Shown: in pieces, positions 18,761 through 29,304 of the stretch | How the letters are laid out: each line of letters starts with the position of its first letter | Numbering within the stretch: the first letter of the stretch is position 1 | Assembly (NCBI RefSeq): GCF_030813595.1 | Contig: NZ_JAUSUH010000002.1 | Span: 248,001-312,000 of the forward strand | From: Ancylobacter vacuolatus | GTDB taxonomy: Bacteria > Pseudomonadota > Alphaproteobacteria > Rhizobiales > Xanthobacteraceae | Length of the DNA stretch: 64,000 nucleotides | Direction of reading: 5' to 3' | Made by a program: the position numbers and the translations under genes | Notes under the pieces: model-generated | What the model was told of the DNA's origin: nothing | The model's database searches: none | The model's input: only the letters and a program-made list of their open reading frames with translations

Positions 18761-18775
18761 GCAACTCTCGTGCCA
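18761..18775 (-). promoter_or_regulatory. Sigma-54 promoter of the second ABC importer operon
   Basis: On the minus strand TGGCACG-AGAG-TTGC matches every defined base of the -24/-12 core consensus. The start point would be near 18749, 32 bases before ATG 18717. Its position next to an AcoR-like sigma-54 activator gene and 129 bases from a perfect palindrome strongly supports function. Confidence 0.8.
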
Positions 18776-18903
18776 TCCGGATTTTTCCCGATCTTGAAAG
18801 ATGATTTCAGCACTTCTGGTCATTCGGGATGGATGATTTAAAGCTTAGAGCAGGCCGCTTCGCGCGTGTTGCTGGATTGCCGGGACGAAATACCACTCAA
18901 TAG

Positions 18904-19001
18904 TGCGACAGTGTCGCATCGCGGCGCAGCGGTGAGACAGGATCGCGCGAAGGCGACGCTGTTTCAAGGATGAGCCGGCCGCTGTCGCAGAGGCGCGACA
19001 G
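18904..19001. promoter_or_regulatory. Enhancer-like palindromes for a sigma-54 activator
   Basis: TGCGACA-G-TGTCGCA at 18904-18918 is a perfect 15-base odd palindrome. TGAGACA follows at 18933-18939, and CTGTCGC-N6-GCGACAG at 18982-19001 is another dyad. All fit a TGNGACA half-site and lie 129-226 bases upstream of the sigma-54 promoter. I infer they bind the activator encoded at 19049-21118. Confidence 0.55.
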
Positions 19002-19048
19002 GGCGGCGTGACAGGGCGCCGTGACGGAGGGAGGCGCAGCGGCGAGGT

Positions 19049-21118
19049 TCAGGGAATGATGCGGTAGCGCTGCAGCTTGCGGTACAGGGTGGCGCGGCTC
19101 AGCTGCAGCGCGCTTGCGGCCGCCTTCACATTGCCGCCGCAGCGCGCCAGCGTGGCGACGATAGCCTCGCGCTCGGCGCAGGCGATGGCGTGACGGGCGC
19201 TGCCGGCCTCGGCCGCCGCTTCCGCCACGGCGAGGCCACCCTCCCCGGCCTCGCCCGGCAGCCCGAAGGCCGCCGCCGCCGCCGGCAGCACCGGGCGCGC
19301 GGCCAGGCCCGCCGCCGTGAAGGCCGGGCGGATGGCGATGTCCTGCGGGCCGAGCACCGTGCCCTCGCAGAGATGAACGGCGCGGTTGAGCGCGTGGCGC
19401 AGCTCGCGCACATTGCCGGGCCAGTCATGCGCCATGAGCAGGGCGAGCGCTTCCGCCGACAAAGTGAGCCCGCGCCCGGCATCGAGGCCGGCCAGCACCT
19501 GTTCGATCAGCGCCCGTCGGTCGGTGCGGGCGCGCAGGGCGGGAATGTCGATCACCGCGCCGGCGAGCCGGTAATACAGGTCCTGGCGGAACTGGCCGCG
19601 GGCGACCTGCGCTTCCAGGTTCTGGTTGGTGGCGGCGATCACCTGCAGATCGACCCGGCGCGGCTTGCCGGCGCCCAGCGGCGTGACCTCGCCGGATTCG
19701 AGCACATGCAGCAGCCTTGTCTGCTGGCTCACCGGCATATCGCCGATCTCGTCGAGGAACAGCGTGCCGCCATCGGCCTCCACCAGCCGGCCGGTGCTGC
19801 CCTCGCGCCGGGCGCCGGTGAAGGCGCCGCTGCCATAGCCGAACAATTCGCTGTCGATCAGCGTGTCCGGCACCGAGGCGCAGTTGAAGGCGACGAAGGG
19901 CGCGGCCCGGCGCGGGCTTTCCTCATGGATGGCGCGGGCGAAGGCGTCCTTGCCCACCCCGGTCTCGCCGAGCAGCAGGATCGGCAGCGAGCCGCCGAGC
20001 ACGCGCCGCACGAGGCGCACATTGGCCGCCATGCGGGCATCGCCGCCGGCGCAGTCGTCGAGGGTGAGCACGCGCGGCGCCGCGCGGGGTGGCAGCGCCG
20101 CAGGGGCGGGCGCCGGGCGGGGGCGGGCCTCGCCGGCCGGCGGGGCGGCGTCCGGGGCGGCGGTGAAGCGCGGGCCGGCGCCGGCCGTGGTCGCCGCCGG
20201 TTCCAGCGGCCCGCTGAGCGAGACGGAGATGGCATCGCCGCCCTTCTGCAGATGCAGCGTCAGTTCGGTGCCGCCGAGCCGGGAGAGGTCGGCAAGCCTG
20301 TGGTCCCGCTCGAACACCGCCCACAGGCTGCGCACGCGGGCGAGCTGGATGCGGTCGCGCAGCATGTCGCGGGCGGCGTGGTTGAGCCCGACCAGCTGGA
20401 AATCGCCATCCACCGCGATCAGCCCGTGGTCAACGGCGCCGATGGCGAATTTCAGGATGAAGCAGCGGCGGAAAGCCTGGCGGAACATGCGCTCGCCGAT
20501 GCGGTCGGCAAGGCTGGAGGACAGGCCGAGCACCACTTTCAGCGTCTCGCGCTGCAATTCGGGATTGCGGATCGAGATGTTGATGGCGCCGATCAGCTCG
20601 GCATCCGGGCCGAACAGAGGCGCGCTGGCGCAGGACAGGGCGGAGAATTCATAGAAGAAATGGTCATTGGTGAGCACGCCCACCGGCCGGCGCTCGACCA
20701 GGCAGGTGCCGATGGCGTTGGTGCCGGCGGAAGGCTCGGCCCAGGCGGTGCCGGGCCGCTCGACCTCGCTGTAATAGTCGGGATGGTAGTTGGCGCGCTC
20801 GGTGATGATGTAGCCCTCGACATTGCCGAGGCTGATGGAGAAGCCGGACACCGAGACGGCGCCGAACAGGGCGTCGATCTCCGGGCGGGCATAGTGGATC
20901 AGCTCGTCATTGGCCTCGCATTGCCGCTTCAGCTCGGCATCGCTCACCGCCTCGATGCGGAACTTGGCGCCGGGATCGAAGCGGTAGCCATCCATGCAGC
21001 GGCGCCAGGAGGCAGCCATGCTGTCGGCGGCGCGGGGCACAGGTAAGTCGCCGGCGGCAGGGGCAAGCTGGTTGGCGCTCGTCACGATGCGCGCGACATG
21101 GCTGCGCAGATCCAGCAT
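19049..21118 (-). CDS. Sigma-54-dependent transcriptional activator, AcoR-like
   Basis: A 689-residue enhancer-binding protein. An N-terminal GAF-type sensory domain occupies about residues 50-200 (NEVDRA-type core VEGYIITERANY, EPSAGTNAIGTCLVE, as in AcoR). A PAS-like segment lies near 235-320, then an Ala/Pro-rich linker. The AAA+ domain has Walker A GETGVGKDAFAR, intact sigma-54-contact loop GAFTGA, Walker B GGTLFLDEIGDM. A Fis-type helix-turn-helix (GGNVKAAASALQLSRATLYR) ends the protein. ATG 21118 is chosen because a TTGACG-N18-CACAAT promoter lies just upstream, inside the longer TTG-initiated frame. Acting gene targets are inferred from the neighbouring sigma-54 promoters. Confidence 0.92.
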   Translation of the reverse strand: MLDLRSHVARIVTSANQLAPAAGDLPVPRAADSMAASWRRCMDGYRFDPGAKFRIEAVSDAELKRQCEANDELIHYARPEIDALFGAVSVSGFSISLGNVEGYIITERANYHPDYYSEVERPGTAWAEPSAGTNAIGTCLVERRPVGVLTNDHFFYEFSALSCASAPLFGPDAELIGAINISIRNPELQRETLKVVLGLSSSLADRIGERMFRQAFRRCFILKFAIGAVDHGLIAVDGDFQLVGLNHAARDMLRDRIQLARVRSLWAVFERDHRLADLSRLGGTELTLHLQKGGDAISVSLSGPLEPAATTAGAGPRFTAAPDAAPPAGEARPRPAPAPAALPPRAAPRVLTLDDCAGGDARMAANVRLVRRVLGGSLPILLLGETGVGKDAFARAIHEESPRRAAPFVAFNCASVPDTLIDSELFGYGSGAFTGARREGSTGRLVEADGGTLFLDEIGDMPVSQQTRLLHVLESGEVTPLGAGKPRRVDLQVIAATNQNLEAQVARGQFRQDLYYRLAGAVIDIPALRARTDRRALIEQVLAGLDAGRGLTLSAEALALLMAHDWPGNVRELRHALNRAVHLCEGTVLGPQDIAIRPAFTAAGLAARPVLPAAAAAFGLPGEAGEGGLAVAEAAAEAGSARHAIACAEREAIVATLARCGGNVKAAASALQLSRATLYRKLQRYRIIP

Positions 21119-21148
21119 CGCGGTCCCCGGTTCCGCCCCCAAGCTTAA

Positions 21149-21178
21149 ATTGTGCGCAGCACAAAGTTTAATCGTCAA
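21149..21178 (-). promoter_or_regulatory. Candidate promoter and operator of the activator gene
   Basis: On the minus strand TTGACG, 18 bases, CACAAT. The -10 is overlapped by a perfect dyad TTGTGC-GCA-GCACAA at 21150-21164, a likely repressor or autoregulator site. Transcription would begin near 21142, 24 bases before ATG 21118. Confidence 0.4.
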
Positions 21179-29022: not shown

Positions 29023-29062
29023 GTCGGGGCTTTCGGCAACGATCAGGGATGCGGGCGATGCC

Positions 29063-29077
29063 GCAAGGCCCGTGCCA
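29063..29077 (-). promoter_or_regulatory. Sigma-54 promoter of the aldehyde dehydrogenase gene
   Basis: On the minus strand TGGCACG-GGCC-TTGC, a perfect core identical to those at 23704 and 25942. The start would be near 29051, 29 bases before ATG 29022. Confidence 0.8.
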
Positions 29078-29191
29078 GCGGTGGCCGGCGGTGCGGGCGG
29101 GGGCCGCGCGGGCGGATAGCGGAGGGGAAGGCGTTGCCGGCGCAGGCTTTTGGCAGCGCTGAGGGGCAGCTCCTGCAACCGGCATCGCGGC

Positions 29192-29242
29192 GCGCGCCCG
29201 TCTCAGATCAGCGACATCTGTCGCAGCGCGGCGCGAGACGGG
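29192..29242. promoter_or_regulatory. Candidate enhancer between divergent sigma-54 promoters
   Basis: TGTCGCA at 29219-29225 is exact; AGCGACA at 29210-29216 and CGTCTCA at 29199-29205 are one mismatch from the half-site. GCGACA-TC-TGTCGC forms a dyad, and CCCGTCTC ... GAGACGGG brackets it. The cluster lies 65 bases from the plus-strand promoter and about 120-140 bases from the minus-strand one. Confidence 0.45.
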
Positions 29243-29289
29243 TGGGCGGCGGCCGGGGATTTTGCCGGCAAAGGCACGGCAAACGCGGC

Positions 29290-29304
29290 TGGCACGCGGC
29301 TTGC
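29290..29304 (+). promoter_or_regulatory. Sigma-54 promoter of the flavin reductase gene
   Basis: TGGCACG-CGGC-TTGC is a perfect core. The start would be near 29316, 36 bases before ATG 29352. It diverges from the 29063 promoter, so this 329-base region fires sigma-54 transcription in both directions. Confidence 0.8.

Follow-up and report, generated by a model that had tools for sequence, protein, structure and literature searches.

The window, a stretch of 64,000 nucleotides of a 5.02 Mb Ancylobacter genome, contains a module made up of a two-component flavin monooxygenase, an FAD-linked oxidase of the aldonolactone-oxidase family (FADox), a DadA-like oxidase, an aldehyde dehydrogenase (ALDH), a PotD-type importer and an AcoR-type sigma-54 activator (Table 1). 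A urea-type importer, a formamidase-like protein and an allophanate hydrolase adjoin the module; the allophanate hydrolase gene is perhaps cotranscribed with that of the flavin reductase (FlvR).

Table 1. Genes and candidate regulatory elements of the module (window positions)
Feature	Position	Strand	Remarks
Fused PotB/PotC-like permease	14768..16504	-	
Importer ATPase	16497..17576	-	
PotD-type solute-binding protein (SBP)	17614..18717	-	
Sigma-54 core TGGCACGAGAGTTGC, importer operon (SBP-ATPase-permease)	18761..18775	-	exact
Importer enhancer array	18894..18999		palindromes 18923-18938 and 18984-18999, 1 mismatch each
Outward pair TGCGACA-G-TGTCGCA, importer array	18904-18918		
AcoR-type sigma-54 activator	19049..21118	-	
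Sigma-70-like promoter before activator, TTGACG-18-CACAAT	21149..21178	-	match frequency about as in shuffles
Terminator-like hairpin after FADox	21212..21238	-	12 pairs
FADox (lactone-oxidase-like flavoprotein)	21241..22509	-	
Luciferase-like flavin monooxygenase (LLM)	22529..23635	-	start uncertain
Sigma-54 core TGGCACGGGCCTTGC, LLM-FADox	23704..23718	-	exact
LLM enhancer half-site GTCTCA with weak partner (GTCTCATTGCGGAGAA)	23782..23797		2 mismatches
DadA-like FAD oxidase	23827..25101	-	
TATACT, putative sigma-70 -10 element of DadA	25262..25267	-	
Proximal DadA palindrome	25291..25306		1 mismatch; with TATACT as -10 box, centred at about -43
Distal DadA palindrome GTCGCAGAGCTGAGAC	25313..25328		22 bp from proximal palindrome
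RidA	25518..25880	-	
Sigma-54 core, RidA	25942..25956	-	exact
Tandem TGAGAC half-sites between RidA and MFS	26043..26121		at 26043, 26058, 26075, 26116
Sigma-54 core, MFS gene	26239..26253	+	one mismatch (CTGC replacing TTGC)
MFS transporter	26333..27511	+	start uncertain
ALDH	27535..29022	-	
Sigma-54 core, ALDH	29063..29077	-	exact
Palindrome GTCTCAGATCAGCGAC between ALDH and FlvR	29200..29215		1 mismatch
Sigma-54 core, FlvR	29290..29304	+	exact
RutF/HpaC-type flavin reductase (FlvR)	29352..29852	+	
Allophanate hydrolase	29969..31771	+	start uncertain

The activator and the sigma-54 promoter cores

The earlier note had described the activator as complete, with a GAF domain, an AAA+ domain carrying GAFTGA and a Fis-type helix-turn-helix. 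The AAA+ domain, the GAFTGA motif and the Fis-type helix-turn-helix were found, whereas Pfam did not match a GAF domain in the window protein at E≤1; at the same threshold it did so in 6 of 17 aligned activator proteins (best E-value 5.3e-10). In the predicted model of the activator the N-terminal order of strands and helices, read by eye, is GAF-like and then PAS-like, and a fold search with the whole model returned AAA+ matches among the best 50 of 1490. No receiver domain was matched in the window activator. The recognition helix, SRATLYRK, is shared by 18 of 19 aligned module regulators (GRATLYRK in locus L053) and differs in the own-genome paralogues recovered (five of eight); one own-genome paralogue, L126, has a rather similar helix, SRSTLYRK. 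The terminator-like hairpin and the sigma-70-like promoter, both overlooked in the earlier note, might, to judge from these weak signals, separate the activator gene from LLM-FADox.

A pattern scan of the window recovered all five exact TGGCACG-N4-TTGC cores and the near-core reported before, and the cores of LLM-FADox, RidA and ALDH are indeed the same 15-base sequence, TGGCACGGGCCTTGC. The pattern TGGCAC-N5-TTGC with GG and GC at -24/-12 was found in the five exact cores and, with its one mismatch, in the sixth. There are 11 exact cores in the 5,020,355 bases of the genome, five of them within the 10.5 kb at 18761-29304 (naive binomial probability 1.9e-11); the reversed pattern matched once in the same genome. 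When two mismatches were allowed, the window had 31 matches against a shuffle mean of 32.3, thus loose core matches are meaningless and were dropped. By hand count, the start codons of SBP, RidA, ALDH and FlvR lie 43, 61, 40 and 47 bases from their cores. For LLM the distance is 68 bases, or 50 if the in-frame GTG at 23653 is used (the LLM homologue in locus L191 has its annotated start 51 bases past the core), and for MFS it is 79, or 40 with the in-frame ATG at 26294, so the previously given range of 29-62 bases holds or fails with the choice of start.

Conservation of the module and of its cores

The module was found in other genera with shuffled gene order, and the cores move with it. The comparison set comprised 19 other module loci (389,503 bases), cut at 10 kb flanks. 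Of the 67 cores with at most one mismatch in these loci, 57 are found no more than 170 bp upstream of a module gene. All 19 loci have such a core upstream of LLM (exact in 12), and 16 of 17 have an exact one upstream of SBP, L053 being the exception. FlvR is preceded by a core in 11 of 13 loci (not in L053 and L055). The MFS core is present in all three other loci with this gene and in L191, always with NTGC instead of TTGC. The ALDH core occurs in 4 of 12 loci; in the remaining eight, ALDH comes after FADox in the same orientation. Three of the seven other loci carrying RidA have a core upstream of it, those without being three Mesorhizobium loci and L046, where RidA stands at the locus end. 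Column conservation of the core is 97% for LLM, compared with 49% in the flanks (20 rows), and 100% against 52% for SBP (17 rows, which were selected for having a core and leave out L053). The earlier note had staked its reading in part on conservation at orthologous loci; the cores are conserved, and the reading survives this check.

Of the 19 loci, seven have RidA and three have MFS at ≥50% identity. Allophanate hydrolase is present in three loci; because the loci were cut at 10 kb flanks, these absences are partly an edge effect. Of the single catabolic system proposed earlier, LLM, the importer and ALDH belong to the recurring module, but RidA and MFS are not part of every version. Literature searches found no published description of the module, and none matching it for the pairing of lactone-oxidase and luciferase-like genes. 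Judged from the protein types, its substrate is probably an amine-type compound. Pathways for trigonelline, homarine and polyamines were weighed as well and set aside, as the literature searches on them gave nothing that matches the module.

A palindrome upstream of the cores and of the DadA-like gene

In an unbiased 6-mer count TGAGAC/GTCTCA ranked first, occurring in 24 of 26 upstream regions, which are not independent, as divergent intergenic stretches and relatives are shared. In 40 shuffles the mean was 2.65 regions and the maximum 5, and of 2451 windows drawn at random from other parts of these loci, 98 contained the 6-mer. The full site is the palindrome GTCTCA-N4-TGAGAC: 14 inward pairs had the N4 spacing compared with 0.1 in shuffles, and the nine from other loci are the independent part of this count. 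Genome-wide, 5 of 22 palindromes with at most one mismatch lie in this region, an enrichment that is partly built in since the consensus was partly shaped on window sites. The half-site is missing from the 300 bp upstream of each of the six exact cores elsewhere in the genome. Loci L190 and L191, both outside the motif discovery set, agree with the motif, L191 being closely related to loci in that set. The palindrome had been missed in the earlier note, and literature searches for it gave nothing relevant.

In the window the sites at LLM and between RidA and MFS are half-sites only, with weak partners (2 mismatches). Other patterns were less informative. An initial TGNGACA with an outward partner matched only the 18904 pair, and the looser inward GTCTCA-N0-30-GAGAC gave a weak result (14 genome places, two of them here). 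Tandem TGAGAC occurs at nine genome places, three of them here; the other six have no core (≤1 mismatch) within roughly 3 kb and were set aside. NifA-type TGT-N10-ACA had one-mismatch matches in three regions, each of them lying across a palindrome or the LLM half-site.

No sigma-54 core, sought with up to four mismatches, was found as a conserved element before the DadA-like gene. In the cluster type of the window this gene has two palindromes and TATACT instead, an arrangement that had also escaped the earlier note. The distal palindrome is the genome's only exact match to GTCKCA-N4-TGMGAC. The centre of the proximal palindrome is 31 bp before TATACT in nine loci and 30 in one, and the distance from palindrome start to TATAC is 37 or 38 in all 13 close-cluster genomes. 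Of 30 genus genomes, 12 have the palindromes and TATACT at fixed distance; every one of them belongs to these 13, and the thirteenth has TATACG. Two genus genomes with a divergent module (G021 and G023) lack the element. In 297 genomes sampled from the order it occurred once, in the source genome itself, the sample including just one other genome of the genus, itself without the module.

With no -35 box, the palindromes and TATACT resemble a class II sigma-70 promoter, a type in which the activator site is centred near -41.5. Tentatively, one AcoR-type protein of the one-component kind may use one 16-bp palindrome in two modes within one mobile pathway: as a distant sigma-54 enhancer for the importer and the monooxygenase, and as a class II site replacing the sigma-70 -35 box at DadA. 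A possible alternative, of less than even likelihood, leaves the sigma-54 regulon as described and has the DadA palindromes read by another protein, whether a class II activator like Crp/Fnr or a second regulator of AcoR type (or its legacy), or takes them for a repressor operator. A second AcoR-type gene is present in 6 of the 13 close-cluster genomes and could bind the element there; the arms of the distal palindrome are TTCTCA/TGAGAA-like in genomes with that gene and CGTCTCA-like in the window and its closest relatives. Yet the seven genomes without the second gene (E≤1e-130) keep the element, which shares its core, TCTCA-N4-TGAGA, with the sigma-54 enhancers. Crp/Fnr-type proteins would likewise be compatible with a centre near -43 and an N4 palindrome, but no Crp/Fnr gene was found among the 26 window proteins scanned.

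Regulation of the module and its relation to known systems

We consider a local sigma-54 regulon under the AcoR-type activator probable (roughly 80%), judging from the conserved cores and from the distribution of the genes: among 30 genus genomes LLM and the activator occur together in 15 and are both missing from 15. The one-activator regulon of the earlier note is partly supported; the DadA-like gene, which belongs to the conserved module, has no core in this type of cluster.

Sigma-54 and nitrogen metabolism are frequently associated, and the adjoining urea-type importer, formamidase-like and allophanate hydrolase genes would suit a different driver, NtrC under nitrogen limitation, with the module as one of several nitrogen-scavenging units. 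This is improbable: the best sites for TGCACC-N5-GGTGCA, which we take to be the NtrC consensus, had 3-5 mismatches of 12 in the five intergenic regions (scored without a shuffled control), a different palindrome is strongly enriched, and 18 of the 19 module loci carry an AcoR-type gene (the exception, L052, ends just past FADox). Chance or decayed core matches, as a GC-rich genome might hold, before genes that are not co-regulated would agree with the lack of excess at two mismatches, but this reading is next to impossible given the extreme clustering of the exact cores and their conservation before the same genes in other genera, in rearranged loci with diverged flanks.

In the local regulon that we favour, the N-terminal region of the one-component activator would sense a small molecule, and the protein would bind the palindromes (T)GTCTCA-N4-TGAGAC(A) or their half-sites and from there open sigma-54 polymerase at the six -24/-12 promoters of the importer, LLM with FADox, RidA, MFS, ALDH and the flavin reductase. 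At the DadA-like gene the same activator may act in class II fashion on sigma-70 polymerase, the nearer of the two palindromes being centred 31 bp upstream of TATACT. The imported, probably amine-type compound would be oxidised via an aldehyde to an acid, RidA clearing imine intermediates. Such a regulon would be self-contained and probably substrate-inducible. With an activator, its likely binding site and a set of targets, it offers a testable circuit for an oxidative module common to several alphaproteobacterial genera, so that induction can guide the search for the substrate.

SBP and the permease are nearest to spermidine/putrescine systems of the PotABCD type. In an alignment inspected by eye, PotD residues W34, Y37, D168, W255 and D257 are kept and E171 and W229 are not (with residue numbering and roles that we take to be those of PotD); because of this loss the ligand is probably neither spermidine nor putrescine. 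With the Rut pyrimidine pathway the module shares an LLM-type monooxygenase, a RutF-like reductase and a RidA/RutC-like protein encoded together. Identity with Rut was rejected: the reductase scores 128 against the curated RutF cut-off of 254.75, LLM matches no NCBIfam family at 1e-30, and RutB and RutD are absent among the 26 window proteins scanned.

The name AcoR-like is right for the architecture alone, a sigma-54 AAA+ domain with GAFTGA, a Fis-type helix-turn-helix and no matched receiver domain. The probable local catabolic regulon is a further likeness to AcoR and other one-component enhancer-binding proteins (bEBPs), but no acetoin genes, including acetoin dehydrogenase, were found among the 26 window proteins scanned. 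PMC6615313 describes, for Clostridiales, 15 bEBP groups with TGT/ACA repeats spaced by 10-12 bp and 15 others with distinct motifs, AcoR among them; the putative enhancer of the module is GTCTCA-N4-TGAGAC. The outer TGT and ACA of TGTCTCA-N4-TGAGACA have a 12-base spacer, thus a distant likeness to the TGT/ACA group is possible.

If the palindrome does have two uses, a canonical one-component sigma-54 activator can also run a sigma-70 promoter. PMC10723142 provides a precedent in FleQ of Pseudomonas aeruginosa, a bEBP acting at sigma-54 promoters and at the sigma-70 promoter pel. FleQ, as described there, carries a REC module and acts together with FleN and c-di-GMP, while -10 and -35 boxes are mentioned for pel. 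The likeness lies in one bEBP working at both kinds of promoter, the sigma-70 use being proposed in our case; unlike FleQ, the regulator described here is a one-component protein, and its site would replace the -35 box at fixed spacing.

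Sigma-54 cores and the module in related loci

The protein-family scan of 26 window proteins identified importer genes (a fused PotB/C-like permease, an ATPase and a PotD-type solute-binding protein, SBP), an ALO-family FAD-linked oxidase (FADox), a luciferase-like flavin monooxygenase (LLM), a DadA-like oxidase, RidA, an aldehyde dehydrogenase (ALDH), a RutF/HpaC-type flavin reductase, allophanate hydrolase, the AcoR-type activator, an MFS protein and neighbouring genes. The earlier note had listed five exact TGGCACG-N4-TTGC cores and a near-perfect one, and all were recovered at their positions in the window (contig C2:248001-312000). 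Cores with up to two mismatches showed no excess in the window (31 versus 32.3 in shuffles), so the weight rests on the exact cores, of which the 5,020,355-base genome has 11, five of them within 18761-29304 (naive binomial 1.9e-11).

Coordinates of the features (window positions unless a contig or locus is named)
Feature	Position	Remark
DAO-family oxidase	877-2172	
Second Pot-like importer, permease	3037-4293	
Second Pot-like importer, SBP	4465-5535	
Second Pot-like importer, ATPase	5607-6767	
Single TGAGAC	6720	isolated
Urea-type importer and formamidase-like protein	7383-13957	UrtA-D-like
Exact cores	18761, 23704, 25942, 29063, 29290	
Activator	19049-21118	minus strand
Inverted repeat CAGAGGCTT/AAGCCTCTG	23717-23734	perfect, 9+9
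DadA palindrome, proximal	25291-25306	
DadA palindrome, distal	25313-25328	
Additional core	25954	one mismatch
MFS core	26239-26253	one mismatch
AcoR-type paralogues and exact cores	C7:108380-136424	own genome
Second AcoR-type regulator	about 3200-6900	L044, L046, L047, L048, L051

The additional core overlaps that of RidA, and the inverted repeat overlaps the edge of the LLM core. The MFS core deviates from the consensus at one and the same position (NTGC) in the window and in L042, L043, L060 and L191, the four relatives in which it was seen, a deviation that perhaps sets a weaker promoter. A possible second sigma-54 region lies on contig C7, where three AcoR-type paralogue matches cluster with two exact cores.

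Genome contigs searched with the LLM gave 79 loci, and the 19 with at least 69% identity (L042-L060) were used; L048, recorded as Bosea sp. 117, shares the coordinates of genus genome G003 and was counted within the window's genus. LLM, FADox, ALDH, flavin reductase, DadA, importer and activator recur in changed gene order in Ancylobacter, Methylopila, Hansschlegelia, Mangrovicella, Mesorhizobium, Acidisoma, one Rhodospirillaceae and one Xanthobacteraceae assembly. Locus flanks end at 10 kb and L052 ends after FADox, so that not every gene is visible in every locus; of the importer, Acidisoma (L058) showed just a 36% ATPase match, and an amino-acid permease is present.

The promoter cores, whose conservation the earlier note had proposed to check, recur in these loci. 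When genes of at least 50% identity are taken together with same-strand cores of up to one mismatch no more than 170 bp upstream, a core precedes LLM in 19/19 loci (12 exact), SBP in 16/17 (all 16 exact), flavin reductase in 11/13 (10 exact), MFS in 3/3, ALDH in 4/12, RidA in 3/7 and DadA in 1/19. These make up 57 of the 67 cores of up to one mismatch that the 389,503 bases contain. In the eight loci lacking an ALDH core, ALDH follows FADox on the same strand and can thus share the LLM promoter. Two plasmids also carry the module, one of 232 kb in Ancylobacter polymorphus (L191) and one of 371 kb and conjugative type in Agrobacterium vitis (L190), the latter with a shorter version; given these locations the module is probably mobile.

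The upstream palindrome and its candidate reader

The 6-mer TGAGAC/GTCTCA was the most enriched in 26 regions at -280 to -20 of the cores, drawn from the window and eight of the 19 loci, and was present in 24 of them; 40 shuffles gave a mean of 2.65 and a maximum of 5, and 98 of 2451 random 260-bp windows from other parts of those loci contained it. Regions of divergent pairs overlap and the genomes are related, so the 24/26 count does not convert into a probability. In 20 upstream regions plus the DadA region, inward pairs spaced by N4 with up to one mismatch numbered 14 (9 outside the window), against a mean of 0.1 in 30 shuffles and 4 for the runner-up spacing. The site is therefore (T)GTCTCA-N4-TGAGAC(A) and tolerates G in place of T and C in place of A. 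GTCKCA-N4-TGMGAC with up to one mismatch occurs at 22 places in the own genome, five in the window including the sole exact one, an enrichment partly built in because the pattern was derived in part from window sites. The 6-mer was found 20-300 bp upstream of none of the six other exact genome cores. In both plasmid loci, which lay outside motif finding, the genes predicted to have cores and half-sites upstream do have them; L191 is closely related to loci from the motif-finding set.

Circumstantial evidence suggests the AcoR-type activator as reader of the palindromes. Its gene is present in 18/19 loci, the exception being the cut locus L052. Of 30 genus genomes, 15 have both LLM (at least 72% identity) and activator (E up to 1e-130) and 15 have neither; in two of the former (G021, G023) the activator is 48-51% identical and was assigned by position near LLM. 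Of 19 aligned module regulators, 18 have the recognition helix SRATLYRK and that of L053 has GRATLYRK; the helix differs in the own-genome paralogues whose sequences were recovered (5 of 8), only slightly in L126 (SRSTLYRK). A terminator-like 12-pair hairpin between FADox and activator and a sigma-70-like TTGACG-18-CACAAT 5' of the activator would, if they hold, make it its own transcription unit, a weak indication because the 9 hairpins and 2 sigma-70-like matches of the region are close to what shuffles give (8.2 and 1.3).

The putative DadA promoter

In Ancylobacter-type loci, DadA (or GMC-DadA) has no conserved sigma-54 core 5' of it. Two palindromes, 21-22 bp apart, lie there at a fixed distance upstream of TATACT: TATAC follows the start of the proximal one at a distance of 37 or 38 in 13/13 genomes, the remaining region having mostly diverged. 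TCTCA-N4-TGAGA-N22-26-TATACT occurs in one of 297 genomes sampled from the order, the own genome, the sample holding just one other genus genome, without the module. A slightly looser composite occurs in 12 of 30 genus genomes, each of them belonging to the 13 whose LLM is 84% identical or more; the thirteenth, A. polymorphus, has TATACG. The divergent modules of G021 and G023 lack the element.

With TATACT taken as -12 to -7, the centres of the two palindromes fall at about -43.5 and -65.5, and the position of a -35 box is occupied by the downstream arm, an arrangement that looks like class II activation of a putative sigma-70 promoter. Beside the main module and the DadA element, six genus genomes have a second AcoR-type gene (40-48% identity to the first); seven keep the element without that gene. 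In at least four of L044, L046, L047, L048 and L051 the second regulator is accompanied by another DadA-like gene and another GMC oxidase, a pattern resembling partial duplication of the module.

Putative function and precedent

The importer type, the amine-pocket residues of PotD kept in the SBP (W34, Y37, W255 and D257, mapped by eye), the DadA-like oxidase, RidA and the choline-dehydrogenase-like GMC oxidase of relatives suggest an amine or amino alcohol as the probable substrate, which would pass through an aldehyde to an acid. LLM and flavin reductase would insert oxygen. The best match of LLM among solved structures was 3,6-diketocamphane monooxygenase, and it is 95-98% identical in Ancylobacter aquaticus, Ancylobacter rudongensis and Xanthobacteraceae bacterium 501b, identities that place the window in Ancylobacter. 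The urea-type importer and formamidase-like protein adjoin the regulon, with allophanate hydrolase on its opposite side; their region contains no palindrome with up to one mismatch. The second Pot-like importer and the DAO-family oxidase are also close to the regulon, with the isolated TGAGAC at 6720.

Among the open-licence papers listed, none on the module or motif was found. A bEBP that acts at sigma-54 as well as sigma-70 promoters is already known in FleQ (PMC10723142).
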